NCBI GenBank assembly: GCA_014240285.1
Contig: JAAZXI010000009.1
Coordinates: forward strand, 1-37,023
DNA length: 37,023 nucleotides
Origin: Methanobacteriota archaeon
Lineage (GTDB): Archaea; Thermoplasmatota; Poseidoniia; Poseidoniales; Thalassarchaeaceae
Direction: 5' to 3'
This document shows, in pieces, positions 3,001 to 32,687 of the stretch. A model generated the notes under the pieces. That model was not told the DNA's origin and did not search any database. It saw only the letters and a program-made list of their open reading frames with translations. The position numbers and the translations under genes were made by a program. Numbering within the stretch: the first letter of the stretch is position 1; the number at the start of each line of letters is the position of its first letter.

Positions 3001-6000
3001 TCGCCGATACCACCGAAGGACAGGTCGTGACCCTCCACGACACCGGTCGATGAATCGACAGTGTAAGGGGCGAGTTGCACCCGATCCCATGAAGGGGAGA
3101 GTTCGATGCTGACATTGGTTAGAGGAGTTCCGTCGAAGAACTCGGCTCCCGACCACACCAGTTTGCCAGTGGCGTGGGAAGGAGAGACCGAGATGTTTCC
3201 ATAGACCGTCTCCAAGCCGTTACTGTGACCGGCTGAACCGGAGACGTTGACTATGGCCTCCGAGAGCCAGGTCGAGCCTGAGACGTTAGTCAGGATTCCG
3301 GTAATCGGGTTGACGTTTCTGCTGGCGGAGGTTTCTTGGAATATGTCGCCCAATGTTTGGCTCACGTCCGAGGCCATAATCAGCGATCGGGCGGCTTCGA
3401 GGTCAGGCTCACCGATGAATGCGGAAACTCTGATTTTGCCTGCTGGGGCGGTGAAGGAAAAATGTCCGTTCTCGTCAGCGTCTGCATAACCAATGGGGAT
3501 CCAGTAGGTGCGGTCGTCTCCATCAACAACATCTCCGTTCTCGTCGGCGACCTCTTCGCCGCTGAACGCGTCGCGCTCAAACATCACACGGGCGTTGGGA
3601 ATAGGCCCAAAGCCCTCCAACTCGACGGTGCCCTCCAGAGTTGCACCACTGTAGTACTTCATGATCTTCACCTGGGTGTTGGCCGAGCCGATGGTCGGGT
3701 CGGTGCAGTCCTCGTTTACCTTCGAGCCGTTGTCGAGCAATTCGCAGCGCTCGTCATCGTACCAGTTAGACAGTACGAAATGGTTCATCATAGCCCCGGG
3801 CATGGGGTATGCATTCTCGAGGTAAGAGCCCGGAGTGCCTGTGGTGTAGAAGTGCGGCGCGGGCTGCGCGGCTTCACCAGGAAGACCTAGTGCCGATGTA
3901 GAGTACCCGACGTAGAACTTGGCCACCATTGTATCGAAGAAGGCGGGCTGCTGCTGGTAGTCGATGTCGACCATCCTGATAATCTCAGTGGAGTCTGAAG
4001 CGCCTGAATTCTGCCTTATGATATCGTTGAGGTATTCCTGCTCGTACTCAGCAGCGGTTCGAGGGATAATCGGCCCATCTCCTCTCTGAGTCTCGTAGAC
4101 TGCGGTGATGTAATCGTCCATGTCTAGACCGGACAAGCCGGTCGGAGCGTGGAAGATTCCTGTGGTCTGGCCACGATGGTACTGGTAGTCTGCATAGTAC
4201 GCGCCACCGAGGGGATACAGCCTATTGTCGATGGCGAAGTACCTGATGTCATTGTTCCGCGTCACCATCTCACCGAGCTCACCCTCGTAGTTCTGGACAT
4301 CGTATTCCAGACTGGTGATTCCGTGATAGATGGCAGCGAGGTCGCTCATCTCAAAGGCGCTGGTCAGGAAGGCCCTGCTGAGTGCGAGACGGGCGTTCGT
4401 GCGGTGCAAGCCGGTCGATACGTCGTTGAAGTCCTCTATCAGATCGCTAGTGTATCTATAGTCGTCAATCAAGTAGTGGGTCGTCTCTAACTCGAATTCG
4501 GCGTTGTTTAGCCTAGTGGTGTCGAATAACTCCATGGCCTCGGTCTCGTTTGTAGTGGAATTACCCATCTGAATTCCGTCTATCATAACCACCCAGACTT
4601 CCTCATCTCCGGGCGTACCATCGGGCCCGAGGAGATGTCCTCGGAGAAGCTCTGTCTTGTCGTCGGTGGCCAATACTGCCATAGAGCGGTCGAGGACAAA
4701 GCCCTCGTCGCCAACACCTAGCGATAGGATGTTGTCGTACTCAATGAATTGGCTCGGTGACATGTGCTCGGCGAGCACCGATGAGAAATCTTCGGTGAAG
4801 CCGCCGCCGTTGTAGCGCCGATCGCCCTGAGCAAGGGTGGTGATGAACAGTGAGAGGGTGTCCTCCTGGCTGTTGGACAGGAGCATTCCTCCGCTGTTCG
4901 GTATCCCCGACTGGAAGTTGTCGGCCACGGTGGGGTGCTGCCCTTGAGCAAGCGCTTGGAAGCCGTAGTCCCACCAAGAGACGAAAGCGGGTCTCTCGCT
5001 GAAGCCCACGTCGGAGTCCTGCTCCGACAACCACTCGTAAGCGAGGTTCCAGGATCCGCTGTTGAATCCCGGACCGAAGGTACCCATGTACCACATCTCC
5101 GAATCTGGATTGTAATCCTCACTCTTGAGCACCGAGAGCCCCAGTAATTCGGCCCGCAGGAAGTCTGGTGCGATATCATGTATCGCCTGATCCACGTCGG
5201 TTGCCGACGGTTGGCCCCGGGGTATTCCGGAGTCTATGCCATAGGTAACATGCTGCGAAGCTACGAGCATGACGACTAGGAGCAAGGCAGGAACTGCGGA
5301 GTTCTTCTTAGTGGCAGGCCACATCGAATTCCACCGGGATCTCGGAGTGCCGATTCCTGAACGGCGCCACTCCTTGACAAATGCTGAGAAGTTTGCACCC
5401 TTCCACATCATTGCGATGCCCAGTCCGCCAACGACAGCCATCGCTGGTGTTGCGTTGAAGATGAATCTACCAGCAGACCAAGCCATGTAGGTCGCTATGA
5501 TTACCCAGATTCCCAGAAGCAGATGGCTTTGGCGCTCGCGTTTGGCCCCTCGCCACATCAGAAGTAAAGCGCACCCCACTGCAATTAGAGCCACGATTGG
5601 CCCGTATGATGCGAATAAGACACCTCGGCTAGGAGCTTGGGCCTCGCCAATGGTTCCAAAGACCTTGTTCTTGGAGAAGTAGAAACCCCCCGTAAACAGG
5701 ATGTCCCACCCGCTGTAAATCTCTAGCTCCTGCAGAACGTAAAGGATGGCCAGTATGCCGCCTATGAGCATGGTGCCGCTGCCGAAGACCAGTAGCCATG
5801 GCTTGTCTCGGTAAGCGGATGAGACCCAACCCAGTGCGATGGTGAACCCAATGATGTAGAACATCGGTTGGAACCCGCTGGGGTCGAACAAGAGGTTTAG
5901 CCCGGGCCAGTTGTAGAATGGCAGTGGAATCAAGAATGTCGTGAGCAGCATCTGTAGAGCGGCCGAAGTGAGAGGTAGGCTGTCTCGCCTGCGGAACATG

Positions 6001-13062: not shown

Positions 13063-13998
13063 TCAGAACAGACGTGCATCGAGGACTCTTGGCTCATCCG
13101 AATCATCGTCCTCATCGTCCCGATACCTGCCAGCAATAGCGGCAGCAGCAAGTGTCGTGATCATCATGGTCCCCATTAACTCAAACCCGGGTAGGTATAC
13201 TCCTCTGATGTATATCGTCATGGTCTGCACCTGATAATTCGGAATACCTTCGGTTCTGACCGAGTATTCAGAAGTGGCTTTGAACTGCAAAGAGAAATAC
13301 TTGTCAGTCCAACCCTGATTCTTAGGGGTCCTCATCTGTACCCTGATCTTCTCGGCTGGAGCCATCGATTCTATCTCAACCGAGACTAAGGGAATACTGA
13401 GTTGGAAGCCCTCGTCATTCAGTTCGTCGTAATTATCGACACCGACGTTGAACCTGTCCATCGCATTGCCGTCATTGTAGACATCGAACACAATCATGTA
13501 GTCGACTTTCGGCCTGAGCTGTAGGAAAGCGACCTCGGAGGCCACCCTTAGACGGCTGAACTGCCTAATGACTGCCAACACCTTGTAGGTGGTCGGAGTC
13601 CCAACCCAAGTGATTCCATCGGCCTGAACGACCTCAGCGGTGATGCTGATGATCTGGGAACCCTCAGGCATCCTGAGTTCGGCCCTAGCCACAACCTGGA
13701 AGGAGACATCAGACTGGGCACCGACGGTCATCGAGGCAGGACCGGCAGCGGCAAGGGAGCCGGACTGAATCTGCACGTTGACCTTCTCCTGATGGATGGT
13801 CGGGTTCTCCAGAGTGCAATCTATGATGGTGATTCTAGTTGCCCCTGGATAGACGTCAATTGGCTGCGGTTGCTGGCAGCTCAGTGTGATGTCTGGGACA
13901 GGCCCTTGGGCCTGAACCGCAGCCGCCCCTGCCCAGGTACTGAGAAAATACACAGCTAGAATCATCAGGGCGGGTCTGACCGAACGAGCCTTCGTCAT
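13063..13998 (-). CDS. Secreted membrane-anchored protein with Ig-like/CARDB-like repeats
   Basis: 311 aa; signal peptide ALMILAVYFLSTWAGAAAVQAQ; C-terminal TM GFELMGTMMITTLAAAAIAGRYRDDEDDD. Confidence 0.78.
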   Translation of the reverse strand: MTKARSVRPALMILAVYFLSTWAGAAAVQAQGPVPDITLSCQQPQPIDVYPGATRITIIDCTLENPTIHQEKVNVQIQSGSLAAAGPASMTVGAQSDVSFQVVARAELRMPEGSQIISITAEVVQADGITWVGTPTTYKVLAVIRQFSRLRVASEVAFLQLRPKVDYMIVFDVYNDGNAMDRFNVGVDNYDELNDEGFQLSIPLVSVEIESMAPAEKIRVQMRTPKNQGWTDKYFSLQFKATSEYSVRTEGIPNYQVQTMTIYIRGVYLPGFELMGTMMITTLAAAAIAGRYRDDEDDDSDEPRVLDARLF

Positions 13999-15830: not shown

Positions 15831-17486
15831 ATGGACCCAGTGGTGCTCGACTTTGGATGGCTGATTGCCTCCTACTTGTTCGGCATCATGCTGGGTTGCC
15901 TGACCGGGCTGATTCCCGGATTCCACGTCAACAACGTCGCACTGATAGCACTGAGTCTCTCACCGGTGGCAGTCGCCATCGGGATTCCTCTGGACGCGGT
16001 TGCAGGCATAATCGTCGCCTGCGGCACCGTGCACACATTCCTGAACTACATCCCTAGCGCTCTGATTGGTGCACCAGACGACAACATGGCTCTCGCCCTG
16101 CTGCCCGGACACCGTATGCTGATCTCGGGTCAAGCCGCGCAGGGAGTGGCTTACTCTGCGCGCGGCTCGCAGATGGGAATGCTGATGTCGATACCTCTGC
16201 TGATAGTGGCGAGACTGCTTTTCGGAGAGGATCCGGGGCTGGGCCTCTACGAGTCCAGCCGCGACGTCCTGCCTTGGCTGCTTCTGATTATCTCGATATT
16301 CCTCATCATGACCGAGACGACTCGCCTCGCATGGCCCGAGTGGTGCCAGCGGTTGACCAGTAAGTTGGTCTTCCGGCTGCCTCGCAAGATTGAGTTTAAC
16401 ATCCCTGTGGGGAAGTTCAACATCCACCGCAGATGGGAGAATTTCGACCTAAGGCTCGGCAGCAGCTCAAGGACCGCAGGGATGCTCGCTGCGACGTCCT
16501 TCTTCCTCCTAACAGGATTCTACGGATGGGCTGTTTTCGAGTTGCCTGGACGGTCTCCGATAGGGATGCCCTCGGCCACACTGCTATTCCCAGGTCTGGC
16601 CGGATTGTTCGGGATTGCCAACCTGATTGACATCTATGTTACGACCTCTGAGATTCCCCCTCAGGAGGCCAACTGGGAAATGCCTCCGATGAAGCCCCTC
16701 GCAATCCCTACTTTCCTGTCCGCCGTCGTCTCCTCAGTCATGGCTATTCTGCCGGGGATGACTGCCGCCCAAGCCACAGTTGTCGTCATGAGCATGCGCA
16801 ATCTGTGGGGCAGGCTGACGGACCCGGACTACATCCCGGCCGACTTTGAGCACGGGATTCAACCGGGTTCCGCGCCGAAGGCATCGCCCCTCGACATCGG
16901 CGATCTCGACGAACTCTCGGACGAGGAGAGGGAGATTTTTGAGGGAGTGCTAACCGAAGCTGGAGTCAGTCCCGATCTCGACTTGGGGGCTCAGAGTCAG
17001 CAACAGGACCTCGAGGTCATCGCCGTTTTGTCCTCAGTCAACACCGCGGTCACGGTGATGGTTCTCGGCTTCCTTTACATGGTAGGCAGGCCGCGCTCAG
17101 GGGCCGCCCTCGCCCTCAACATGATGTATCCAATCGATATGTGGAACGCCGTCGATCCTCCGGCAGATTTCATCAGGCTTTTGGGCATCACGATTGCTTC
17201 CGGACTGTTCGCGGTTCCAGTAATGATCAAGGTCGGCAAAGGGATGCTGAAGATGCACGAAATCGTGCCCCTACGCACAGTTGTTTTCACGGTCACAGGA
17301 TTCATCTCTATACTCGTCTGGCTATCAACTGGATGGATAGGTTTGGGAGTCCTAATCATCGGCACCGCGATGGGGCTGATGCCGCCACGTATTGGAATCC
17401 GACGCAGCCACGCAATGGGGATTATCCTAGTCCCAATAATGATGTACACATTCGCGCGCGAATTCGACGGATTTGGCTTCATTTGA
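15831..17486 (+). CDS. TctA-family (DUF112) polytopic membrane protein
   Basis: 551 aa; FGIMLGCLTGLIPGFHVNN, VHTFLNYIPSALIGAPDDNMALALLPGHRM, SRGSQMGMLMSIPLL-like pattern, multiple TM segments. Confidence 0.8.
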   Translation: MDPVVLDFGWLIASYLFGIMLGCLTGLIPGFHVNNVALIALSLSPVAVAIGIPLDAVAGIIVACGTVHTFLNYIPSALIGAPDDNMALALLPGHRMLISGQAAQGVAYSARGSQMGMLMSIPLLIVARLLFGEDPGLGLYESSRDVLPWLLLIISIFLIMTETTRLAWPEWCQRLTSKLVFRLPRKIEFNIPVGKFNIHRRWENFDLRLGSSSRTAGMLAATSFFLLTGFYGWAVFELPGRSPIGMPSATLLFPGLAGLFGIANLIDIYVTTSEIPPQEANWEMPPMKPLAIPTFLSAVVSSVMAILPGMTAAQATVVVMSMRNLWGRLTDPDYIPADFEHGIQPGSAPKASPLDIGDLDELSDEEREIFEGVLTEAGVSPDLDLGAQSQQQDLEVIAVLSSVNTAVTVMVLGFLYMVGRPRSGAALALNMMYPIDMWNAVDPPADFIRLLGITIASGLFAVPVMIKVGKGMLKMHEIVPLRTVVFTVTGFISILVWLSTGWIGLGVLIIGTAMGLMPPRIGIRRSHAMGIILVPIMMYTFAREFDGFGFI

Positions 17487-17573: not shown

Positions 17574-20246
17574 ATGGAACGAAACAAAATGGCAATCGCG
17601 ATAGGGGCTATGCTCCTAATGGTAAACATAGGAATGGCAGCGACTGGTTTCGTAGACGGCCTGATAGAAGGGGCAGTCGCGGACCAAATTGCTGAGTCAT
17701 ACGATGAACAATCCGACTTCGATGAGGAATGGCACGTATCTACTGCAGAGCGTGTATACTTCGCCAACTCGTTAACCGACCAATCCGCTCTAGAATCAGA
17801 CAATCCGGCTGATGCGTTCACTATGATGGGGCCGTTCATCTATGAGGTCACGACGACTCGTGAAATCTTAGAGTTCGATTCTGAGGGCGGTTCGATGACT
17901 TACTCAGAATACGATGTCTTCGAGTGGTGCGAGAACTGCACATGGACTGACGAGGGTGGAACTGCACACGAATCGGCCTCCGGCGACACCAACATCACCA
18001 ATGTGAACATACTTTGGAACACCCAAAGGATTGGTGGAATGGGTGGTGCCACTGGTGGCATATTCTATGGCGAGACCTTTGCCAAGGCAATGTTCGCATC
18101 CGGCATGGTGGAGTTCGACCTAGCAAACAGAGCTCCCAGCATCTGGGCATCCGAGGAAATTGACCTGATGGTACCCGGGGCATCGGCGGCACTTCAGCAA
18201 GCTGGGTACGATGAGGCGACTGCTGACGCCATGGCACCTGCGGTCGTGCTCAGAGGGGCATACGACAATTGGCTCGCGCAGAGCGGAGCCAGTGATGCGA
18301 ATCCTGACTTCGCGGCATCGGCTCAGAGCATTCTCTACGATGCTGTGGATCCTTCCACGGGGATTTGTATCGCTATAACCTGCGACTTGGGGCCCGTGCT
18401 TGTAGCGGGAATGGGGGAGCCTAGCGAGATATCTACTCCTGCACGGGCTGCACTATTCGGTTACGGTAGCACCGACCCGGCAGTCCTCACGCACATGGAC
18501 TGGGCCGTTTACGCACTTGCTGGGACGACTTTTGCCGCAAACGGCGGTGGTGCTGAAATAAACAATCAGACCCCTCAACTACGAGAGCGTTTCCACGAAG
18601 TCAGTGGCATCGATATTACCACCCCTGAGACCTTGGATAACCTGCTTTTCGACCCCAATGTGGGGATGATGGGGTCCTTTGAGATAAGTGGCATTCCACT
18701 CCCAGGGATGGTCGTCGGTTTGTTGCTTCCACTTCAGTCAGGCAACTACTATGACGCCATGGTAACCTACAATCTGGGTCTGCTGACCATATCAACCCTC
18801 GCGGATTATGTCGAACCGTGGGTCGGACTCGGAGTCACCGGGGCCCCTAGGGATTTCGAACAGATTCTGATGGGTGGCGAGGGCACAATAAACTCCGAGC
18901 AATGGTGGCATGCCGCCTTCGGAAGCGCGGACCCCTTGACCGGAGAGTACATTCCGATTGGACTCAACCGAGAACAGTTCGCTGGTATGGCAGACCTTAG
19001 TGCGGAGAAGTCGAGCTTCATACTCACTGATCCTGTCATCGGCCTCAAGTCATCTTTCCCAGCGGCGTTCATGTATGGTGAACTATCTGGGATGTCGCTG
19101 CCTGATTGGGAAGGGAATCAGCACGTTTGGGATGATGCTTACGTGGGCGCACTATACGGAATCTCCGATGACGCTGCACACGCCTTGAGAGACTGGGTCT
19201 ACAATTTCTACTTCGACACCGTGATGCCGGTGCTGCTGAACTTCGTGACGGGGAACGAGGAATTCACCACACAGCCCGTGAACAACTGGCTGTATGGTTG
19301 GAACGATGCCGTCAACACATACTTCGGTTTCTTCCCATGGGTGAGCCTAGAGACCAATGAAACATACTACGGTTCTGATGGCATAAGCACTGGTGACAGA
19401 TCGGTGTACCAGATGAGCATCTCAGGAGATAATATCGGCCAGAGGCTATCTCAGGGTTACATCAACTCCGATGGCGATGGGGCATGCGACTACGATTATG
19501 ATGCGGATGGCGAATTCATAGGCTACGAACTACCATGCGAAGCTAACCAAACCTACGGGATGACAGAGCACTTACCATGGCGCGCCCCTCATCGAGAGGA
19601 TGCTGCATTAGGTCTGCTGTCAGACCATGTTGGCAACCCGGAGACGGTAGTTGCTGGGACAGCTGGGTCTATTGCGGATGCAGATGCTTCGTTCGACTAC
19701 AATCTGATTGGCTATTCCATCGGTCACTCAGTTGTTGGAGAAGAGACGACATACAAGGGAATTGCAATGACCGATCACTCAATAGTTCTGGATCCTGCCC
19801 AAAATCAGATTCAGGGTAAATTGATTGGCTCAGATACCTTTGTCGATGCGATACCAGGTGCACTTCCAATTTACTTTGGGGCCAACATCGACATGAAAGT
19901 CGAGCCTATCACTAATGCAATAATGTACGGAAAGGTCGAAGCAAAATTCTACCTAGATTTGCGAGGCCCGGGTTCAATGAACCCGGACTTCGGCTTCGGT
20001 TCTACAGATGTCGTGCCAGTTTTCGAGATTCATGTGTTCAGTGATATCCCTGATGATGGTGCTGAGTCTTTCCGTGGAAGCGTGAGCGACAACCTAGGCC
20101 CTATGGGATGGACTAACTTCGGCGGGGACGCCGGGGCGCCTCTCTCCTACGTGACCTATGCCATAGCACTGTTCTATGTCGCTGGAATAGGACTTCTGAC
20201 ATACGGAGTCAGTGGGGTCAGTGACTCCAAGGACGACGAAGAGTAG
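17574..20246 (+). CDS. CD36/LIMP-2 (scavenger receptor class B)-like membrane protein with two terminal TM helices (track start GTG 17565; ATG 17574 preferred)
   Basis: N-TM AIAIGAMLLMVNIGMAATG; GLIEGAVADQIAES...DEEW...ERVYFANSLTD...NPADAFTMMGPFIYEVTTTREILEFDSEGGSMTYSEYDVFEW; near the C-terminus DTFVDAIPGALPIYFGANIDMKVEPI; C-TM YAIALFYVAGIGLLTYGV. Confidence 0.65.
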   Translation: MERNKMAIAIGAMLLMVNIGMAATGFVDGLIEGAVADQIAESYDEQSDFDEEWHVSTAERVYFANSLTDQSALESDNPADAFTMMGPFIYEVTTTREILEFDSEGGSMTYSEYDVFEWCENCTWTDEGGTAHESASGDTNITNVNILWNTQRIGGMGGATGGIFYGETFAKAMFASGMVEFDLANRAPSIWASEEIDLMVPGASAALQQAGYDEATADAMAPAVVLRGAYDNWLAQSGASDANPDFAASAQSILYDAVDPSTGICIAITCDLGPVLVAGMGEPSEISTPARAALFGYGSTDPAVLTHMDWAVYALAGTTFAANGGGAEINNQTPQLRERFHEVSGIDITTPETLDNLLFDPNVGMMGSFEISGIPLPGMVVGLLLPLQSGNYYDAMVTYNLGLLTISTLADYVEPWVGLGVTGAPRDFEQILMGGEGTINSEQWWHAAFGSADPLTGEYIPIGLNREQFAGMADLSAEKSSFILTDPVIGLKSSFPAAFMYGELSGMSLPDWEGNQHVWDDAYVGALYGISDDAAHALRDWVYNFYFDTVMPVLLNFVTGNEEFTTQPVNNWLYGWNDAVNTYFGFFPWVSLETNETYYGSDGISTGDRSVYQMSISGDNIGQRLSQGYINSDGDGACDYDYDADGEFIGYELPCEANQTYGMTEHLPWRAPHREDAALGLLSDHVGNPETVVAGTAGSIADADASFDYNLIGYSIGHSVVGEETTYKGIAMTDHSIVLDPAQNQIQGKLIGSDTFVDAIPGALPIYFGANIDMKVEPITNAIMYGKVEAKFYLDLRGPGSMNPDFGFGSTDVVPVFEIHVFSDIPDDGAESFRGSVSDNLGPMGWTNFGGDAGAPLSYVTYAIALFYVAGIGLLTYGVSGVSDSKDDEE

Positions 20247-20323: not shown

Positions 20324-23300
20324 ATGAGTGGTCGGTCTCGACGTAGTGCAGCGGGCCTCTCATTGGCTATTCTAGTACTGATGTCACTGTCGCCGGTCTT
20401 GATTGATGGGCTTAGCGAATCAACACCTGCCAGAAGCGCCTCCGATCGCTCCACAAATTGCTCGGTAGTGTGCATCAACGAGATGATGACAAATGCTGAC
20501 GGCTCCGATCAGGGAGTATTTCCGGATGGCGAATGGGTCGAACTGCACAACTCCGGATCGATTGGAGTCAGTCTTGAAAACTGGTTCCTTGAGGACATCG
20601 GGGGCTGGGTGCACCCAATCGACGCAGGAACTTGGGTTGACTTCGACCAGCTCGCTACTCCCTATGTCTTGACGGCTGGCTCGTATGCCATCATCGCCGA
20701 GAACGAGATTGGCACCTTGCGCCTGAACAATGCCGGCGAGACCCTGTATCTCAAGGACGCCGGAGGTACTGTGGTTCATACTGCGACCTCAGGCGAGGCC
20801 TCCAACGGAGTCTCGAAGATACCTAATCCCTCAGATCCGAATATGGACTGGATAGACTCTGAGGAGAACACTCCGGGAGCCGAGAACTCTGAGACTACGG
20901 GGGGCGGTGGAGGAGAGGTGGGATCGACCCCTGCTGACCTTACTCGCGTCATGGCGATGCCGAGTGAAGCCGAGGTGACTGGCCTCCACATCAACTCCTT
21001 AGGCAATCTGTTTGTCAACGCAATGCATCCAGACGACGCCAACTACAAGGCGACGGTTGGAGTTGTCAACGGAGTTGATTGGAACAACCTCCCCGAAGTA
21101 GTGCCTGAACTTAGCATATCGAGCAGTGAGTGGGACATCTGGCACGGCATCAGAGTATCCATCGGAGACTATCAGGTACTGTTGCAGAGTGGGGATCAAC
21201 TTTCTGAAGGAGGGGTAGCCGGTGGCATCTACGCTGCTGATGACGGAGAGCTGTTGTTTACCAGTGAAAAGCCGGACTTCAATGCATTCGTGCCGCTAAA
21301 CCAGCAAGGCACCAGGGGGTACCTGTACACAACTTGGGAGAGTCGTCCTGCGGGAGTCAGTCAACTCCTGATAGAATGGGACGATGATACTGGCCAATGG
21401 GAAGTCCAAGGTGGGATGATGCAGGATCTCAGCGGAATGAATGGTGGATGGGTGCTCTGCTTCGGCTCGATGAGCCCCTGGGGAACTCCTTTGCTTTCCG
21501 AGGAGCTTTACTTCGCAGACACAGAGAACTGGAACAACCCTAGTTACAACTACCACTACAACCAGCAGGAACTGGCGGATTACCTCGGATACTACCCTAA
21601 TCCCTACGACTACGGATGGATAGTGGAGATTGAGAACGCTGCAACCGCATCGCCCATTTTCAACAAGCACATGGCGATGGGGAGGTTTTCTCACGAGAAT
21701 GCTCAGGTGATGCCGGATGAGAGGACTGTCTACTTGACAGACGACGAGTACGGCACAGTACTGTTCAAATTCATCGCTGACACAGCCGGCGACCTCAGTG
21801 CAGGTACTCTCTACGCAGCCAAGGTAACACAGGACTCCGGTAGCGACCCTTCTACCACAGGGTTCGATGTTGATTGGGTTGAGATGGCATCCTCGAGCAA
21901 TTCAGTAGTCGGGGGTTGGGTAGATGAGTACGACGGAATCACAACCTCTGACTATGTCGCAGGCGAGAACTCATACATCACTGAAGAGGAGATCAACGCA
22001 TGGGCCGAAGAACGATTGAATGAGGACTTGGATGGGGATGGCGAGATAGAATCGACTGTCGATGATAGGGTCGCCTTCCTAGAGTCTCGAAAGGCGGCCG
22101 GGGCCATCGGAGGAACTGATGAGTGGAACAAGATGGAGGGAGTTGTGTTCAACCCGGAGGCACCGGGTTATCTGTACCTAGCAATGTCTGACGTGCGCTA
22201 CGACATGAGCGATGGCGAGGGCGACATCGGGCTCTCAGAGAACCGTTGCGGTGTCGTATATAGGATGCCAGTGGAAGATGGGTGGGGAGTAAGTAGAATC
22301 GAGCCAGTGATTGCTGGAGGGCCCTATTCTTCGGGAGAATGCGATGTGAACAATATGGCTGGACCGGACAACCTCGCCGTCCTAGACGATGGCAGAGTTC
22401 TGGTGGCTGAAGACACAGGTAAGCACGACAACAACATGCTGTGGCTGTGGGACCCTCCCGTCGAGCCGACCGAGTGGGACGGCGAATACAGCCTGAAGTT
22501 CACTCGTATCATGCCTGCAGAAGTCCCGGATCGAGACAATGACTGGTTTGAGATTACCAACACGGGTGAAACCGCGATCAGTCTGGCCGGATGGACCATC
22601 GAGCGCATACGCTCAACTGACCCTTGGATTTCCATGGTCAATGACCTGACCATCGGCGCCGGCGCGTCGGTGGTGCTGACGGAGAATCCGGCCAACCTCC
22701 TAGCGGACGGAGGCATAGCAGCACTGGACGGAAACGTCGTCCTGAACAATATGCCCTGGCTGGTCGACTCAGGTAGCGCGCTGCAACTGAAGGCGCCTGA
22801 TGGAACGGTAGTCGATGCCATCGCCTTCGGTGGAGGGATTGCTGATATTGACGGATGGCAAGGCGGGGCCGTATCGGTCCCAGGAGATGGTTCGCCCGGA
22901 CTCATTCTGATGCGAGGCTCCGGATGCGGTGACTACCCCGACACCGACTCGGGAGCTGACTGGGAGCAGAGGTGGATACGCATCGGCGCATCGACGTTCT
23001 GCGACGGCGGGCACTTCACGACCGAGACTGATTCGACTGCGTCTGCCTCGATCGGCCCGGACTCGGCGTTCAACGATCTCATACAGTGGATTGCCGAAGC
23101 CGAGGACTCGATACACCTGCATGTATACCAGTTCATGAGTCCAGATTTGACTCACGCCCTTCTGGATGCCATTGGCAGGGGTGTCGAGGTCACGCTGCTG
23201 CTCGAGGAGGGCATTCTCGACGGCAGTAGCACAGTGAACAACCAGAGAGGGCATGCACAGGCTCTGCACGATGCTGGAGGCAATGTCCTCTGGATGGAGG

Positions 23301-24907
23301 ACCCGACGCTGATTAGCTCACCCTACACGTATATCCACAGTAAGGTGGCGGTGAGGGATGCCGAGAGTGTCTGGATCTCGTCGGGCAACTGGAAGGATAC
23401 CAGTGTCCCTCCCGATGGAGTTGGCAATCGGGAGTGGTCGGTAATCTTGAATTCGGAGACCGCCGCCCAGCTAGTACTCTCCAGAATGGCTTGGGATGAG
23501 AATCCCCAGCACCTGCACATTTCACCTCACTCTTCCCGGCACTCCCCTACGTTTGACTGGACCCTAGACGAGGCCAGCCACGATGGTACCGTGACTCCTA
23601 CTCCTACTCATCAAGGGCCCTTTGAGGTCCAGCTGATGACCTGTCCCGACGACTGCATCGATGGCATAGTCGGTATGCTCGGTTCAGCAGAGACTTCGAT
23701 TGAGCTATCAGTGCAGTATCTCGACCTCGACTGGTACTGGGGCTTCGGAGATAATCCAATCATAGCAGCGTTGCACGATGCTGCGCTACGTGGGGTAAGC
23801 ATCCGGCTGATGCTGAACGGCTACTACGCCGAGTGGGATGAGGAGATTCGAGATACTATCCACATGTTCAACACCGATTGGAACGCCACCGAAGGGCTTG
23901 ATACGACGGCGCGGCTGATGGCGTACTCCAACAGTATCGTCAAACTGCATAACAAGGGTGCGATAATCGATGGCGAGAGTGTCCTAGTGGGAAGCATGAA
24001 CTGGGGCTCAAGCGCAGCCCTACGCAATCGGGAGATGGGTGTGCTCATCCACCATGACGGTCTTGCTGCAGAGTATCTCTCCTCCTTTGAGGAGGACTGG
24101 GGGCGACTCGATTCGACAACTGACTCAGACGGCGATTTGATGCCGGACGTGTGGGAAGCACAATTCGGACTCAACAGGCACTCGGCGGCTGTACTAGGGA
24201 CCGCTCTCAGCGAGCAGTCGCTCGACCCTGATGAGGACGGCCTGAACAACCTCGAGGAATTCCAGCTCAACGGCAACCCTCTCTCTAACGACACTGATGG
24301 TGACTGTATACCCGACGGCGAGGAGTCGGCCTTCGCCCAAAGTGTGCTTCGTTCTCCCTCTTTCGCCATGATTTCAGGGGACGTAGATGAGAACGGCGTT
24401 CCCGACGGAGAGCAGCATGGCTGTCAGACCATCGTGGATGTCGGCGGAGAAGGCGATGGAGAAGGCGGTAGCGAGGGAGAAGGGAACGGCTCTGAAGAGG
24501 AAGATGGACCGAGCGGGGGCATCCTGAACATCAGAGATGATCCTCTGTCGCGACCGGGCGCGACGTTTCTGTTCTGGCTGATGGTGATATCTACGATATC
24601 ACTGGCATTAGCCGGTGCCTCAATGTTCTTGCAACCTCGCAAAGGTACCGGCGAGGTTCTGGTCGATGACTCCGGTTACAGGTTCGATGACCCTGATGCC
24701 CATATGGCGATTCTCAAGGGAACCAGTTTCGACGAGGGAGCAGAGGATGCTCGTGCTCGCACCGAGGGGCGCGACGACGGCTCGCACGGGTCCATCCGAA
24801 TGGATGGTTTCGGATTCGAATCTGCCACGCGAGACGAGGTCCAGTGGATGCTCGACCAGGGCCATACAATCGAAGAGGTGAGGGCCGAGCTCGGAGAGGA
24901 GGAGTGA
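20324..24907 (+). CDS. Secreted multidomain enzyme: lamin-tail domain, PhoX/DUF839-like phosphatase, lamin-tail domain, tandem-HKD phospholipase D, TSP3-like repeats, C-terminal TM and cytoplasmic tail
   Basis: 1527 aa. PhoX-like: CFGSMSPWGTPLLSEE, GRFSHENAQVMPDERTVYLTDDEYGTVLFKF, EGVVFNPEAPGYLYLAMSDV, GPDNLAVLDDGRVLVAEDTG. PLD: HSKVAVRDAESVWISSGNW and HNKGAIIDGESVLVGSMNWG. Lamin-tail: INEMMTNADGSDQGVFPDGEWVELHNSG and TRIMPAEVPDRDNDWFEITNTG. TM FLFWLMVISTISLALAGASMF. Confidence 0.88.
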   Translation: MSGRSRRSAAGLSLAILVLMSLSPVLIDGLSESTPARSASDRSTNCSVVCINEMMTNADGSDQGVFPDGEWVELHNSGSIGVSLENWFLEDIGGWVHPIDAGTWVDFDQLATPYVLTAGSYAIIAENEIGTLRLNNAGETLYLKDAGGTVVHTATSGEASNGVSKIPNPSDPNMDWIDSEENTPGAENSETTGGGGGEVGSTPADLTRVMAMPSEAEVTGLHINSLGNLFVNAMHPDDANYKATVGVVNGVDWNNLPEVVPELSISSSEWDIWHGIRVSIGDYQVLLQSGDQLSEGGVAGGIYAADDGELLFTSEKPDFNAFVPLNQQGTRGYLYTTWESRPAGVSQLLIEWDDDTGQWEVQGGMMQDLSGMNGGWVLCFGSMSPWGTPLLSEELYFADTENWNNPSYNYHYNQQELADYLGYYPNPYDYGWIVEIENAATASPIFNKHMAMGRFSHENAQVMPDERTVYLTDDEYGTVLFKFIADTAGDLSAGTLYAAKVTQDSGSDPSTTGFDVDWVEMASSSNSVVGGWVDEYDGITTSDYVAGENSYITEEEINAWAEERLNEDLDGDGEIESTVDDRVAFLESRKAAGAIGGTDEWNKMEGVVFNPEAPGYLYLAMSDVRYDMSDGEGDIGLSENRCGVVYRMPVEDGWGVSRIEPVIAGGPYSSGECDVNNMAGPDNLAVLDDGRVLVAEDTGKHDNNMLWLWDPPVEPTEWDGEYSLKFTRIMPAEVPDRDNDWFEITNTGETAISLAGWTIERIRSTDPWISMVNDLTIGAGASVVLTENPANLLADGGIAALDGNVVLNNMPWLVDSGSALQLKAPDGTVVDAIAFGGGIADIDGWQGGAVSVPGDGSPGLILMRGSGCGDYPDTDSGADWEQRWIRIGASTFCDGGHFTTETDSTASASIGPDSAFNDLIQWIAEAEDSIHLHVYQFMSPDLTHALLDAIGRGVEVTLLLEEGILDGSSTVNNQRGHAQALHDAGGNVLWMEDPTLISSPYTYIHSKVAVRDAESVWISSGNWKDTSVPPDGVGNREWSVILNSETAAQLVLSRMAWDENPQHLHISPHSSRHSPTFDWTLDEASHDGTVTPTPTHQGPFEVQLMTCPDDCIDGIVGMLGSAETSIELSVQYLDLDWYWGFGDNPIIAALHDAALRGVSIRLMLNGYYAEWDEEIRDTIHMFNTDWNATEGLDTTARLMAYSNSIVKLHNKGAIIDGESVLVGSMNWGSSAALRNREMGVLIHHDGLAAEYLSSFEEDWGRLDSTTDSDGDLMPDVWEAQFGLNRHSAAVLGTALSEQSLDPDEDGLNNLEEFQLNGNPLSNDTDGDCIPDGEESAFAQSVLRSPSFAMISGDVDENGVPDGEQHGCQTIVDVGGEGDGEGGSEGEGNGSEEEDGPSGGILNIRDDPLSRPGATFLFWLMVISTISLALAGASMFLQPRKGTGEVLVDDSGYRFDDPDAHMAILKGTSFDEGAEDARARTEGRDDGSHGSIRMDGFGFESATRDEVQWMLDQGHTIEEVRAELGEEE

Positions 24908-26184: not shown

Positions 26185-27251
26185 GACTGGGGCACATAGA
26201 TCGAATGAGAGCCATAGCCGTACTGTGCATGGTCGAAGTCCACACGGCGGCCATTATCCCACCCGAAGGAATCAGTGTTGGTCACCCTGCTGCCTTCGTC
26301 GCAGCCGCCTTCGGAGGGATGGCCGCGCCGATGTTCGTCGCCATATCTGGTTGGGGCATCCACATGAGTGCGATTCGCAGAGCCGCTGACCCTGCCCACA
26401 ACGCCGGGATATGGTTGCGTTGGCTGGCTCCCAGAATCTTGTTGCTGAGTCTATGTCAGCTGCTGGTCAACCTTCTACTCAGCGCCGACCGAGGGGGTCG
26501 CTTTGAGTGGCAGACCCCAGGTGTCCTGACACTGCTCGCAATAGGTGCCCTGCTGGCACCTGTCCTAATTCGGCTCTCTATGCGCTCTCGCGCATTACTG
26601 ATGCTGGTGATGATGGCAACACCATTGGCTCTCGGAGACATCTCTGGACCGGACTGGTCATGGTGGGAACGGGTTGGTTCTGAAGGAGTTTCAGAATGGC
26701 TTGCTAGGCTGCTATGGAACGGCACATATCCTGCGGTACCGTGGCTGGGTTTCGTGCTTCTGGGCTCCTTAATCTACGACCTTGCTGATAATCCGGCTGC
26801 GAGAGAGCGTGGCATCGTCCTCGGACTCGCTGCTACCACTGTCACGGCGGCCATCGCAGCGTTTGAGGAGATCCCTTGGGCTCTGACCGAGGGCGAGGCA
26901 GTCCTGACCTTCTTCCCAGCGAGCACCGCCTTCCTCGTCGTTTCCGGAACCTTCGTGCTAATCGCCCACAGGGCGCTTGAGGGCTCGGAGGCGAGTGGTG
27001 GCGAGCCGGGTGGAGGTGACCGTCTGGCGTCTCTTGAGTCCGCTGGCCGAATCACGCTGACAATCTACGTCGCTCATTTCGCCGTGTTGGGTGCTGTGGC
27101 ATCGGCGATGCAGGGGGAGCCTAGACTGGAGCTCGTTCCAGCCTTCGCTGCGACCATCGCCAACACTCTCATCTGGATACCTTTGGCGGCCTGGCACCAG
27201 AAGCACATACCCAATATCTCCTTCGAGGCCCTACTGAATAGACTCAGTTAG
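26181..27251 (+). CDS. Polytopic membrane protein, acyltransferase/DUF1624-like; TTG start at 26181 or ATG at 26202
   Basis: 356 aa; RLGHIDRMRAIAVLCMVEVHTAA N-terminus typical of membrane acyltransferases, about 10 hydrophobic segments. Confidence 0.68.
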   Translation: MRLGHIDRMRAIAVLCMVEVHTAAIIPPEGISVGHPAAFVAAAFGGMAAPMFVAISGWGIHMSAIRRAADPAHNAGIWLRWLAPRILLLSLCQLLVNLLLSADRGGRFEWQTPGVLTLLAIGALLAPVLIRLSMRSRALLMLVMMATPLALGDISGPDWSWWERVGSEGVSEWLARLLWNGTYPAVPWLGFVLLGSLIYDLADNPAARERGIVLGLAATTVTAAIAAFEEIPWALTEGEAVLTFFPASTAFLVVSGTFVLIAHRALEGSEASGGEPGGGDRLASLESAGRITLTIYVAHFAVLGAVASAMQGEPRLELVPAFAATIANTLIWIPLAAWHQKHIPNISFEALLNRLS

Positions 27252-30200
27252 GTGTCACCGAAATCGGACCAAACCATACATCGCCCTCTTCGTTAGATGC
27301 CATGATGCGAACGTAGTAGGTAGTGTCGTCCGCTAAACTGATACCGGCAGAACCAGGGCCCACCTGAGGTGTACCGGCGCTGACGCTGTATGGCCAGAGT
27401 TGAGAATTGTTGCCCATGTCGGTCTGCCCGTAGTAAACGGTGAGAGTATTATTGGTGCCATTGTCGTAGACGTCCCATGTGACATCTGCAGTGCTGCTGG
27501 TGACATTGATCGTGGTCAGATTGCGAAGTATTGCGTCGTAGACGTAATAGTCGCCGCGCAGGGGGTCGTCGACCCATACCGGCAAGTGCTCAAGTGCGTC
27601 ATAGGTAGCTTGCGTCAGAGGGAAACCCCACGCAGCGTGATAGGGGGCGAGGTTGTATCCAGTAGCATTTGAGAGATGCAAAACCCATGCGTTGAACTCC
27701 TCGTTGCCGTTGGTCGGGACCTCTGCTGCAGGAAGAGTATAGTAGACGCTGAGAGCCTCTGTAATCGGCCCCCACCCCCACTCCTCCTTGATGATCAGAT
27801 AGGTGTCGAGTGCTATCCAAACGGACCAATTGGAGATGTTGGAGCCATCCTCGAAGTACGATTCCATCCTCGCTGCCCTCTGCTCTGGGTCAACGGCACT
27901 GTGTCCTTCTACTCCGACTAAATCTTCCATCAAGTAGACGCTGGCGAAGTTGCATCCCGTCTCAGTAGTGCCAGGGAGTGTGGATGGCATCCACTGATGG
28001 TTGTGGCCGAGTTCATGGAACATCCCCCAGTCACCGTTTTCTCTCATGTAAGATACGTTGACCACACCTGCCACACTGAGGTCGTGTGCCATGAATGGGT
28101 ACCCTGAGTGCATCCAGCCAGCAGATATCTGTGCATCGAAGACTGCTCTCTCCACTCTTGGCCATGGCTCAAAACCATACAGTTCATGCTCCATTTCTAG
28201 AGCCGTGTCCCACCACTCCATCAATTCCGTAGGATTTGTCAAATCTCGAATCTCATGGCTGGGCACTGTCATGATGAAATTATTAGAAATCAGTTCCGCC
28301 CACGGAGCTGGATTATCGTTCTCAAAGTAAATCCATTCAAAGTCACCCGTCTCCCCAAGAACAAACATTGGGGCCTTCACGGCGTTTGAGATATTTACTT
28401 GGAAGTCGCCCAATGTAGAGCCCGGCTCTATTGCGATGTAGATTGGTCCGCCGAAGGCATTCCCCACCTCCATCGTCTCCTGATCGACATACCACCATCT
28501 GACGATCTGCGGGTGCCGGTGTAGTTGGTCTTTAGACCACAGACTGTCGCTGTGTGCACCAACTAAGACATAGGTCCCTGAATCGACTGTATGGTTAGGA
28601 AGTGTGACCGTTACGACCTCTCCGGGAGCGGCATACAAACCGGTGGTCATCCTCACATGCGCTCTGGCCCCGGCATATCCGAAATTACTCGGAAGCCCGC
28701 TCTGATTGCCATCTATTGTCACAGTCCGTAATATCCTCGTTGCATTGGATGGCACCTCTCCGGGGAACTCAACATGGCTGGGATGCGCCGGGAGTTCATG
28801 CGCTGGTAGCCCCTGTGTCAGTGCCGCCTCCACTCTGAGCAAGGTGTCGGCTACCGGATCCTCGCCCATGTTATGACCGATGTTCTGCCACAATGTGCCA
28901 TATTCGATTACTGTCCAACCAGTAGCGTTGACTGTCTCCCTGAGAGGCGACCAGAAGTCATGGAAGTCCAAGGTCACTACCCCCGTGCATACGGACAGTG
29001 TGGAGTCGACGATAGCAGCATCATCAGTAGAGAGAGTCTGATTGTCGTTCCTGTCGGCTCTGATTGCCTCGATGGCCGCATGGGGACGGGCTAGCTCGTG
29101 CGGGAAATCAGACAGGTCGATATCGTTGTAGCCCCAGGCAGGTGAGACGAACAGCCCGGTCGTCTTGGCAATCTTGTTGCCCGGGTAGTTGTGCGCTACA
29201 TCGGAGTTGGAGTACGACCAGTACCAAGCATGACCACCCATTATCAGACCACCCCCCGCGAGCATGAAGTCGACTAGATTCTGGTTGTCTGAATCGTCAT
29301 GGCCGTTCCAGAACTCGTCGAGCAGGCAGTCTATGCCCGAGAGGTCCGCCGGAGTCACTGAGAGGTGAACCGTGTGACCTTTTGCCTGCAGTTCGTCCTC
29401 GAAGTCGTCGTAGCCCGCGCCGTAGGCGAGTCCCACGTCAGCGTTCTGGCCGCAGACCCATTCAACGGCGCGCAGGGAGAACTCGGTCTCCATGACGCCA
29501 GCGCCGTCGACCCAGCTCTCATGGCCGTATCCGAGCATCCTGCCACGACCGACGTGGCTGGCGGATATCACGGGAATCGTAGAGCCATAGCCCTCCTCTG
29601 TGAAGCCGATGGGGAAGGCCCACTCGCCAATAGGCAGTATCGGAGAAGGCCAGCCGCCCCAGTTCGTCTGTCCCATGCCGCGCAGCAGGTCTGACTGGTC
29701 GGCTTCGAGGTCGTGAACGGCTATCCACAGACTCAGCCCGGCCACCCCGCCGGTGTTGTTGGCCCAGATGATGTACTGCCTCCAGCCGGTACGCTCGTCG
29801 GGAGTTCCCGAAATTGTCCCGTTGGTAAGCAAAGTAAGGCCAGAGGGCAACGGCGGACTGACCTCCCAAGTCTCAATCTCGGGGCCATCGTTGGTGGCTA
29901 GTATTACGATACTCTCGTTGGCCTTCAGTGCGAATTCGATGTCAGGCCAAGAGATCGCGTCAGGAGGAAGACTGGTCACCCGAAACTGAAGCGGGGTCGA
30001 GGCCGGGCCACCGGAATTGTTGGCCCAGACAGTGTGGTGGGTCCACGGCTGTAGGAGGATTGCGGAGCCACTAATCTGCCCAGTATAGTAGTCGAAGACG
30101 AAGCCGGAAGGCAATGGAGGGTCTACTTCCCAGATGTCCGGAGTGCCGCCCTGCCAGGTCGGCATCACCTGCCCGATGCCATCACCCAGCCTAATGTCGA

Positions 30201-31236
30201 ACTGATAGGGCTCGTACCCAAGGCCCTCTACAGGGATGTCTCTGACGTCGATGAGAATGGTCGATGAGAGTGAGCCACCGGTGTTGTGAGCAGTGATTAC
30301 GTACTCCCTCAGTGGGTGCGCCGATATCGGAGTTCCTCGTAGAGAGCCATCGAACTGGTGCAGCACTACTCCTTCGGGAAGAGGGGGTTCGATTGACCAG
30401 TTAGTGACCTGCCCTCCCTCAGAAGATGGTATGACTTGCACTGACACACCTATGGTCCAGTAGAATGGGTGCCCGGGGTACGAAAGAGCCGTGGGCTCTT
30501 CATGTAGGGTGATGATTCGAATTGAAGTTTCAATGGAGCCGCCTGAGTTTGAGGCGATAACGGTGTGATTGGAGTCTCCGAGAGCACGTGCTATGCCGGT
30601 TATTGAACCGTCGTCGAGAATCACCAGTCCTTCAGGAAGTAGAGGGCTGGTTGACCACTCGTCTGCTGTTCCACCCAACAGCAGTGGTGAGCCGATTGAG
30701 CACTCCTCCCCCAGAGTGCACGGTAGAACATCTGAGAGATATTGGATGGAATTCGGAGCCGCGGCGACCACCGTTATGTCGATGGTGGTGACCGCAGAGC
30801 CTACCGCGTTCGTACCGATGATGGTGTAGCGGATTTCGATAGCCGCCCCCTCAGGAGTCCCTCCGATCACCCCCGAATCTCCATCGAGAGACAGACCATC
30901 TGGAAGCCGAGGGTTGACGAACCAGTCCTGTGGGCCGTCGCCGAGGAAACTCGGAGTCAGGGTCTGCATCTCGACTCCGACGATGAGAAGGATGGAGCTC
31001 TCCCCATAGGTCAGAGAACTCGGCTGCTGCATTATCCTGCAAGCATCACCAGTGAACACCTGCTGGGCTGTGCAGTCGTCCTCAGTGATGACAGGGACAA
31101 AGCAGTCGGGGTGAGACGGCTCGGCGACACAGTCGACCTCCTCAACCGGCTCCTTCTCCTCGTCGAATAACCCAAGACATCCCGAGCTGAGCATCAGCAT
31201 CGAGAGCAGGAGGGCGGCGTTGCGCTTCGGCTGCAC
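27244..31236 (-). CDS. Lipoprotein with five putative Ig-like (He_PIG-type) repeats, TCAF-like GATase-fold region, M60-like zinc metallopeptidase and C-terminal Fn3-like domain (track start GTG 31302; alternative GTG 31236)
   Basis: Lipobox LSMLMLSSGCLG; repeats with 'W..xPPLPxGx...GxxxGTP'; GGGLIMGGHAWYWSYSNSDVAHNYPGNKI; WGMFHELGHNHQWM...NFASVYLMEDLVG. Confidence 0.85.
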   Translation of the reverse strand: MQPKRNAALLLSMLMLSSGCLGLFDEEKEPVEEVDCVAEPSHPDCFVPVITEDDCTAQQVFTGDACRIMQQPSSLTYGESSILLIVGVEMQTLTPSFLGDGPQDWFVNPRLPDGLSLDGDSGVIGGTPEGAAIEIRYTIIGTNAVGSAVTTIDITVVAAAPNSIQYLSDVLPCTLGEECSIGSPLLLGGTADEWSTSPLLPEGLVILDDGSITGIARALGDSNHTVIASNSGGSIETSIRIITLHEEPTALSYPGHPFYWTIGVSVQVIPSSEGGQVTNWSIEPPLPEGVVLHQFDGSLRGTPISAHPLREYVITAHNTGGSLSSTILIDVRDIPVEGLGYEPYQFDIRLGDGIGQVMPTWQGGTPDIWEVDPPLPSGFVFDYYTGQISGSAILLQPWTHHTVWANNSGGPASTPLQFRVTSLPPDAISWPDIEFALKANESIVILATNDGPEIETWEVSPPLPSGLTLLTNGTISGTPDERTGWRQYIIWANNTGGVAGLSLWIAVHDLEADQSDLLRGMGQTNWGGWPSPILPIGEWAFPIGFTEEGYGSTIPVISASHVGRGRMLGYGHESWVDGAGVMETEFSLRAVEWVCGQNADVGLAYGAGYDDFEDELQAKGHTVHLSVTPADLSGIDCLLDEFWNGHDDSDNQNLVDFMLAGGGLIMGGHAWYWSYSNSDVAHNYPGNKIAKTTGLFVSPAWGYNDIDLSDFPHELARPHAAIEAIRADRNDNQTLSTDDAAIVDSTLSVCTGVVTLDFHDFWSPLRETVNATGWTVIEYGTLWQNIGHNMGEDPVADTLLRVEAALTQGLPAHELPAHPSHVEFPGEVPSNATRILRTVTIDGNQSGLPSNFGYAGARAHVRMTTGLYAAPGEVVTVTLPNHTVDSGTYVLVGAHSDSLWSKDQLHRHPQIVRWWYVDQETMEVGNAFGGPIYIAIEPGSTLGDFQVNISNAVKAPMFVLGETGDFEWIYFENDNPAPWAELISNNFIMTVPSHEIRDLTNPTELMEWWDTALEMEHELYGFEPWPRVERAVFDAQISAGWMHSGYPFMAHDLSVAGVVNVSYMRENGDWGMFHELGHNHQWMPSTLPGTTETGCNFASVYLMEDLVGVEGHSAVDPEQRAARMESYFEDGSNISNWSVWIALDTYLIIKEEWGWGPITEALSVYYTLPAAEVPTNGNEEFNAWVLHLSNATGYNLAPYHAAWGFPLTQATYDALEHLPVWVDDPLRGDYYVYDAILRNLTTINVTSSTADVTWDVYDNGTNNTLTVYYGQTDMGNNSQLWPYSVSAGTPQVGPGSAGISLADDTTYYVRIMASNEEGDVWFGPISVTPN

Positions 31237-31261
31237 GGGCCTTATTGGACGGCCTCTGGCG

Positions 31262-31298
31262 AAAAAGTGTCCGGAAGGCGTGCTCCTCAGGAGCACGC
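31262..31298 (-). terminator. Putative terminator downstream of glyA: 10-bp stem with single-nt centre, T5 tract about 11 nt further on
   Basis: + strand GCGTGCTCCT-C-AGGAGCACGC at 31278-31298, directly abutting the glyA stop; T5 on minus strand at 31266-31262. Confidence 0.5.
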
Positions 31299-32579
31299 TC
31301 ACGCGAGGCCAGGATATGCTGGCCCAGGCTCGAAGCAGTAGTGGACTGTCTGGAACTCGGACTTGAACTCGGCAACGTCCCTGCGGACAATGGTTGGATT
31401 CTCGTTGGAGAGCAGTGCCCTAGCAAAGAAGCGTGCCACATCCTGCATCTCGTCGGGCCTCATGCCTACCCTAGTCAGTTCAGGGACACCCAATCTGAGT
31501 CCGCTGGGTGACATCGCCTTGGTGTCCCCAGGAAGCATGTTCATGTTGGTGATGATGCCGGCTTCCTCAAGCAGTGCGGCTGCATCCCTACCAGCTCCTG
31601 AATCGGCCTCTCCGTGACGAGTCAGGACCTGGTGGCTGGCTGTGTAGTCGCGCTCCTCGGCCATCACCTCGAAACCCTCGGCAGCTAGAGCAGCGCCAAG
31701 CGCCTTGGCGTTGGCAACGATGTCTCTGGCGTAGTCGGCACCGAACTCCTCAAACTCGGCTAGAGCCACTGCTTTACCAGCTACGTGATGGAGGTGATAG
31801 GAAGAGCAGACTCCGGGGAATATCGCGCTGTTCAGGCGACGCTGGAACTTGGGGTCGTCAGAGTTCGAAAGTAGGAAGCCACCCTGTGGGCCAGGGAATG
31901 TCTTGTGGCTGCTCCCGGTCATCACGTCAGCACCTTCCCTCAGAGGGTCCTGGAACTGATCTCCCGCAATTAGCCCGAGGACGTGAGCAGCGTCGTACAT
32001 CACCTTGGCACCGACCTCGTGGGCGGCGTCAGCCAGCTCTTCCAAGGGAGTCGGGAACAGGAATACAGATTGACCGAACAGAGCAATGTTTGGCTCGGTC
32101 TCGCGAATCAGGTCTGCTGCAGCGTCAATGTCTGGCTCCATGCGGCTCTCGACCCAGGGGTACGTAACCAGATTCAACCCCCGCAAACCTACTGCGCCCA
32201 TACGTGCGTGTGAGATGTGGCCGCCGTCGGCAGTGGACACTGCGGTGATTGTGTCTCCGGGCTTGGCTAGGGCCTTCAGTCCGGCGATGTTGGAAACAGT
32301 TCCCGAGGTCGACTGTATATTTGCAAAATTGCAGTCAAAGACACGCTGAGCAGCAGCGATGCCAATCTCCTCAATGGTGTCGAAGTCGTCGCACCCCTGG
32401 TAGTACCGCTTACCCGGCAGGCCTTCTGCATACCTGCCGTGTAGATCCGAATCGCAGGCCTTGCGTACCAACGGGCTGAGGATGTTTTCGCTGGCTATCA
32501 TAGGCAGACTGTCGCGGTAGTGCCTGCCCGACTCGTCGACTGCTTCCTGTATCCTCAATGCTGCCTCACGAGCACTCAT
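31299..32579 (-). CDS. glyA: Serine hydroxymethyltransferase
   Basis: 426 aa; LPMIASENILSP, GRYAEGLPGKRYYQGCDDFDTIE, VMTGSSHKTFPGPQGG (PLP lysine). Confidence 0.97.
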   Translation of the reverse strand: MSAREAALRIQEAVDESGRHYRDSLPMIASENILSPLVRKACDSDLHGRYAEGLPGKRYYQGCDDFDTIEEIGIAAAQRVFDCNFANIQSTSGTVSNIAGLKALAKPGDTITAVSTADGGHISHARMGAVGLRGLNLVTYPWVESRMEPDIDAAADLIRETEPNIALFGQSVFLFPTPLEELADAAHEVGAKVMYDAAHVLGLIAGDQFQDPLREGADVMTGSSHKTFPGPQGGFLLSNSDDPKFQRRLNSAIFPGVCSSYHLHHVAGKAVALAEFEEFGADYARDIVANAKALGAALAAEGFEVMAEERDYTASHQVLTRHGEADSGAGRDAAALLEEAGIITNMNMLPGDTKAMSPSGLRLGVPELTRVGMRPDEMQDVARFFARALLSNENPTIVRRDVAEFKSEFQTVHYCFEPGPAYPGLA

Positions 32580-32655
32580 GTATCCTGCATCGAGAACAAG
32601 TCAAAGAGTTTAGCGGAAGCGTGTAGAATCTCCTCATTCCGACTTAACGGGGGAG

Positions 32656-32667
32656 AGTATTTTGAAT
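32656..32667 (+). promoter_or_regulatory. Candidate TATA element about 26 bp upstream of the ATG at 32688 (would fit a leaderless transcript)
   Basis: AT-rich agtattttgaat in the divergent glyA/TSP3-protein intergenic region. Confidence 0.35.
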
Positions 32668-32687
32668 CGGGGCGGACATGGTACCCC

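Follow-up and report, generated by a model that had tools for sequence, protein, structure and literature searches.

A very probable CD36/LIMP-2 family protein (class B scavenger receptor) in archaea of the Candidatus Thalassarchaeaceae (MGIIb)

Does the CD36/LIMP-2 family of class B scavenger receptors (SR-B) extend to archaea? A 2023 survey across Eukarya placed the family in LECA and tied it to phagocytosis, with archaea unmentioned (PMC10715195). The question was raised by one open reading frame in the window, the 37,023-nucleotide stretch of DNA analysed here, for which an original prediction had proposed a relation to this family. Our results indicate that its product is very probably an archaeal CD36/LIMP-2 family member from Ca. 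Thalassarchaeaceae (MGIIb), which bears on the origin of the family and on possible lipid uptake by MGII archaea. Searches of the open-access journal literature on CD36 in Marine Group II and on PF01130 in archaea found no paper describing an archaeal CD36. Because many members score above the Pfam cut-off, they may already carry automatic Pfam annotation.

Sequence and fold of the window protein

The reading frame starts at an ATG (17574), with an alternative GTG 9 bases upstream, and ends with a stop codon at 20244-20246 (Table 1). Its product is strongly acidic. A transmembrane helix at each end and a large ectodomain had been proposed, and both were borne out: hydropathy peaked at residues 5-27 and 857-882, in agreement with the terminal AF2 helices, between which extends an ectodomain of ~830 residues. 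Two membrane helices with short tails around an ectodomain are part of the SR-B definition (PMC10715195), and the same arrangement was found here by AF2 and hydropathy. Six cysteines occurred, at positions 119, 122, 265, 270, 638 and 655. The metazoan disulfide pattern is absent from non-metazoan SR-B (PMC10715195) and is therefore no defining feature of the family.

Table 1. Features of the gene and its product in the window
Feature	Coordinates	Strand	Evidence
Very probable CD36/SR-B family membrane protein, 890 aa	17574..20246	+	ORF, Pfam, PDB profile, AF2, Foldseek, orthologues
N-terminal membrane helix, aa 2-23	17577..17642	+	AF2, hydropathy
Predicted CD36 barrel, first part, aa 55-147, Pfam-matching stretch	17736..18014	+	PF01130, AF2 strands, LIMP-2 alignment
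Apex insertion, aa 148-531, mainly helical, without known homologue	18015..19166	+	AF2, collinear gap versus LIMP-2, PDB searches
Apex return, aa 532-584: alpha5-like helix, short strand and helix	19167..19325	+	Profile alignment, AF2, invariant columns
Predicted barrel, second part, aa 608-841, with GALPIYFGANIDMKVEPI and VPVFEIHVFSDIPDD	19395..20096	+	AF2, sub-threshold LIMP-2 alignment
C-terminal membrane helix, aa 854-885, then short acidic tail	20133..20228	+	AF2, hydropathy

Among 24,736 Pfam families, PF01130 (CD36) ranked first for the window protein. Profile positions 67-114 aligned to residues 75-122, exactly where a CD36-like order of residues had been noticed, though with 15.5 bits only (E 0.0064; curated cut-off 26.5), and the genome search with the same profile matched the window at 17709-18014. 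All 43 aligned relatives matched PF01130 at an E threshold of 0.01 (best 73.5 bits, E 1.6e-20), so that the resemblance of the window protein exceeds chance. Several relatives displayed two PF01130 pieces in one frame (profile ~51-134 and 133-257, summed 63-67 bits). Scores above 26.5 bits were recorded in 57 of the 298 sampled genomes of the phylum, all 57 from the order of the window, Ca. Poseidoniales (MGII). The cut-off was thus exceeded at the family level and not by the window protein alone, which, judging from sequence, belongs to a large archaeal family as a divergent member. Sub-threshold matches in other parts of the phylum (E 0.008 to 0.07) were attributed to chance, their profile positions being scattered. 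An NCBIfam search with the window protein gave no match.

When compared alone to the PDB with phmmer, the window protein had no match at E 10 and the family profile was required. Against 177,635 PDB sequences, this profile retrieved LIMP-2 (E ~1e-5) and CD36 (E 3e-4 to 1e-3), with no other match at E < 0.2. HMMER aligned LIMP-2 38-103 and 132-165, in order, to profile positions 72-139 and 568-602, the second piece being weak alone. Besides the N-terminal stretch, the weaker collinear alignments paired LIMP-2 LFVTHTVDELLWGYKDEIL with archaeal 'yltqsvnnWLyGWhDpvla' and LIMP-2 PVMYLNESVHIDKETASRLKS with archaeal 'avFeIkssseiddedaealess'; they were insignificant one by one and correctly ordered. 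The collinear N-terminal and apex-hinge motifs of SR-B were recovered in this way from the family profile.

AF2 was also run without templates on the window protein, using 43 archaeal sequences (pLDDT 83.4), and on a distant paralogue, using 21 (84.8). For each of the two models, the top 13 Foldseek matches in the PDB were LIMP-2/CD36 chains with a probability of 1.0; best E-values were 1.4e-5 and 7.9e-7, respectively, and 11 LIMP-2/CD36 matches per model lay below E 0.001 (8e-7 to 4.5e-4). Mycobacterial LmcA came next for both models, and no credible PDB match was found beyond LIMP-2/CD36 and LmcA. TM-scores normalised to LIMP-2/CD36 were 0.33-0.43 (rmsd 5-14 A), whereas 0.5 is the usual level for a same global fold; rigid superposition is therefore partial, and this constitutes the main structural reservation. 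With that partial superposition, the asymmetric beta-barrel of LIMP-2/CD36 was found by AF2 and Foldseek. Its first part comprised strands 55-67, 82-102 and 107-118, and its second part strands within 609-824 followed by helix 827-841, aligned sub-threshold to LIMP-2 383-408 by the family profile. The C-terminal likeness to CD36 that had been suggested for GALPIYFGANIDMKVEPI is plausible by eye and falls on paired long AF2 strands (766-776 and 782-795), yet it never reached significance alone by sequence.

The family relation put forward in the original prediction was therefore upheld by relatives above the Pfam cut-off, by the family profile and by both AF2 models, whose closest folds were those of LIMP-2/CD36 and not an unrelated one. 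Four aspects had gone unmentioned: the sub-cut-off score of the window protein, an apex domain of ~385 residues, the order-wide family and the sharing of the fold by LmcA. It is highly improbable that an unrelated archaeal surface barrel merely mimics the N-terminal CD36 stretch by chance or convergence. The 15.5 bits of the window protein alone and TM-scores under 0.5 would fit such a case, but many relatives passed the cut-off, several collinear regions occurred in the correct order, sequence and fold searches agreed, and the insertion lies at a known expansion site.

The apex insertion and the proposed function

The most distinctive part of the protein is the mainly helical insertion between the strand ending at ~144 and the hinge QPVNNWLYGWND (568-579). 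It corresponded to a collinear gap in the LIMP-2 alignments, was flanked by long AF2 helices (162-209 and 532-559) and was the best-modelled part of the protein (pLDDT mostly ~90 or more). Searched alone by sequence against the PDB, it gave no credible match (best E 0.15), and it was kept in paralogues with as little as ~28% identity. For this large, confidently modelled domain of no known fold, the whole-protein Foldseek searches likewise gave no PDB counterpart. The apex return that follows contains TTQPVNNWLYGWNDAV, aligned to LIMP-2 VTHTVDELLWGYKDEI by the profile, and the invariant columns W572, L573, G575 and D578. All large eukaryotic SR-B expansions are reported to lie between motifs M4 and M6, at apex helices alpha4/alpha5 (PMC10715195). 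By its position, the archaeal strand-plus-helix 564-574 would represent the M6 hinge; the archaeal insertion site is that of the eukaryotic expansions, between alpha4 and alpha5.

As established for the SR-B family, ligand is recognised at the apex, and an internal tunnel conducts fatty acid or cholesterol in the direction of the membrane (PMC10715195 and works cited therein). MGII archaea possess and transcribe fatty-acid degradation genes (PMC6336850; PMC9723583), and the host genome encodes acyl-CoA dehydrogenases, thiolases and AMP-binding enzymes. On these grounds we infer an outward-facing, lipid-capturing receptor, lipid capture and transfer being its most likely function. The ectodomain would face outwards, and the large apex domain would capture lipid-bearing ligands such as fatty acids, lipid particles or membrane debris. 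The cavity of the barrel would let captured lipid slide into the archaeal membrane, from where it may be activated and oxidised. As a whole, this reading as a CD36-type receptor is the best explanation of the data and is probably correct. The lipid-binding role proposed for the cavity-bearing barrel of LmcA (PMC8972800) also speaks for it. Lipid is likely to be bound within the barrel. Uptake, rather than export or adhesion, stands at about even chances. It counts against this reading that, at the neighbourhoods examined, no lipase or acyl-CoA synthetase was seen in a conserved operon with the CD36 gene, the neighbours being TctA-like, OB-fold, LTD/PhoX/PLD and acyltransferase genes.

Alternatively, the protein could be an adhesin or docking receptor, holding particles or proteins with its enlarged apex and transporting no lipid, a reading that we regard as possible but rather doubtful. 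A parallel is LIMP-2, which docks glucocerebrosidase. The quality of the modelled insertion and its retention in distant paralogues would suit such a role, as would the use of the apex as ligand-recognition zone in eukaryotic SR-B (PMC10715195) and the link between particle attachment and MGII genomes (PMC6336850). However, the barrel is likewise conserved, with many invariant residues in both halves, which counts against pure adhesion since adhesion would need no conserved barrel.

The fold match to LmcA points to another role, like that of mycobacterial LmcA/PgfA, in which the protein would shuttle endogenous lipids or lipid-linked glycans between the membrane and the surface of the cell, for envelope building and not for uptake. 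LmcA is the sole other fold match, LmcA and PgfA function in lipid and lipoglycan handling, and a CDP-archaeol synthase gene lies ~7.5 kb from the CD36 gene. Moreover, PF11271 (LmcA/PorA), to which the window protein displayed no match, was weakly matched by three of the 43 relatives (E 0.0013 to 0.01, short of the curated 29.5 bits). This role is nevertheless unlikely: CD36/LIMP-2 are closer than LmcA both by sequence and by fold, LmcA lacks a helical apex bundle, and the neighbourhood comparison did not establish the CDP-archaeol synthase gene as a recurrent neighbour. One relative (locus L049, protein 681-804) combined the PF01130 score of 73.5 bits with a weak PF11271 score of 16.4 bits and is a possible sequence bridge between the two Pfam families.

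Distribution, gene neighbourhood and origin

The gene was common to most ocean-surface Marine Group II archaea. Relatives were detected in 170 of 195 genomes of the order by protein search and in 264 of 347 genomes of the class by profile search, with no detectable copies in genus g8 by either. The nearest named relatives came from records titled Candidatus Thalassarchaeaceae or Thalassarchaeum, Poseidoniales, or Euryarchaeota. A midpoint-rooted tree set the window type apart from another ancient group of paralogues, with members in both Poseidoniales families. One genus has the two types side by side at locus L040, where they lie head to head and are divergently transcribed (423-3029, minus strand, and 3149-5665, plus strand); this orientation and the gap of ~120 bases suggest shared regulation.

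Gene order around the CD36 gene was conserved in Thalassarchaeaceae. A surface protein gene (13063-13998, minus strand) is followed, often after an OB-fold and TctA pair, by the CD36 gene, then often by an LTD/PhoX/PLD gene together with thymidine phosphorylase, and finally by an acyltransferase gene. This synteny shows that the gene is not a contamination and speaks for its long residence by vertical descent. The OB-fold and TctA pair was present or absent as a block across relatives; in the window, the gene directly upstream (15831-17486, plus strand) encodes a TctA-family membrane protein (E 4e-39). The gene at 20324-24907 (plus strand), whose counterparts often lie directly downstream of the CD36 gene, codes for a 1527-aa secreted protein with LTD, PhoX phosphatase and two PLD-like domains, possibly involved in phosphate or phospholipid scavenging. 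Further along the window were found a lipoprotein-like protein of 1352 aa, in which putative Ig repeats occur together with an M60 (enhancin-like) peptidase domain (27244-31302, minus strand), and a protein with many Asp-rich repeats of calcium-binding type (32520-34781, plus strand), whose C-terminal TPGFGLISALAVLALAALARRD resembles, by eye, a PGF-CTERM sorting signal.

Some relatives carried bacterial labels, namely L137 and L155 (both from MAG G411) and L146 (G412), which are MGII neighbourhoods on Pedosphaera or Gemmatimonadetes records and probably reflect mis-binned or mis-labelled MAGs. A bacterial origin drawn from the 'Pedosphaera' label of L137 and the 'Gemmatimonadetes' label of L146 was rejected, these contigs carrying MGII-type neighbours. 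PF01130 was run, as a negative control, over 197 genomes from the phylum to which G411 belongs, and only G411 itself matched; since L137 sits on an MGII-type contig and the rest of the sampled phylum was empty, its label is ascribed to mis-binning. A viral origin was without support, as no relative of the gene was found in viral contigs and no match to the protein in a viral structure library.

Whether the family was transferred into Poseidoniales from a marine eukaryote, or instead forms a prokaryotic lineage that predates the eukaryotic one or is its sister, is finely balanced, and we place transfer slightly under even odds. The restriction of the family to one order within the phylum is consistent with transfer, and its hosts are surface-ocean plankton living among protists. 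Eukaryotic donors were available, given that SR-B is placed in LECA (PMC10715195). Against this, divergence within the family is deep (to 25-30% identity), no fewer than two ancient paralogue groups extend across both families of the order, and one apex insertion is shared, which implies that any acquisition dates back to the ancestor of the order or earlier. LmcA, in addition, is a CD36-like fold present in bacteria independently of eukaryotes. More speculatively, and in our opinion rather improbably, the archaeal proteins may form a prokaryotic SR-B branch with a giant apex domain, taking up particulate or dissolved lipid directly by a protein tunnel, which together with actinobacterial LmcA would belong to an older superfamily ancestral to eukaryotic CD36. 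If so, class B scavenger receptors would not be a eukaryotic invention, and one branch of them would sit in one of the most abundant archaeal groups of the ocean.

Bacterial LmcA already shows a CD36-like fold, which is accordingly not new in prokaryotes; what appears new is an order-wide, sequence-detectable archaeal CD36 branch with a new apex domain. This branch is the first sequence-detectable candidate for a prokaryotic outgroup of the CD36 family. It also ties that family to the fold of bacterial LmcA and offers a concrete and testable proposal for how uncultured Marine Group II archaea, reported to degrade fatty acids, may take up lipid.

Comparison with known systems

LIMP-2/SCARB2 (4q4b, 4f7b) was the top match of the archaeal family by both sequence and fold. 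Common to both are the two terminal membrane helices, N-terminal barrel strands carrying '..W....YFxxxxTNpxe......P..e.vGPf.Y', the apex hinge 'f.t..v...LxGw.D' and the late barrel strands. Identity in the Foldseek alignments was only 10-14%, and the ~385-aa helical apex of the 890-aa archaeal protein contrasts with the short three-helix bundle of LIMP-2. CD36/SCARB3 (5lgd) belongs to the same fold family (Foldseek E 1.4e-5 and 2e-6; profile E-values as given above). It differs by the large apex insertion of the archaeal protein, for which CD36-type ligands and tunnel are only predicted.

Protist and invertebrate SR-B, such as Dictyostelium LmpA and oomycete SR-B, likewise display an expansion between alpha4 and alpha5. 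These expansions are described as lineage-specific and of independent origins (PMC10715195), and what they share with the archaeal insertion is its position.

LmcA/PgfA (PF11271; 7n3v, 7shw) provided the second-best fold match, with a CD36-like asymmetric barrel and cavities, as well as the weak sequence matches in a few archaeal relatives. For LmcA, a cavity-bearing barrel of this type, a lipid-binding role was proposed (PMC8972800). These actinobacterial proteins are smaller, are devoid of the helical apex bundle and matched the archaeal family less strongly than CD36/LIMP-2.
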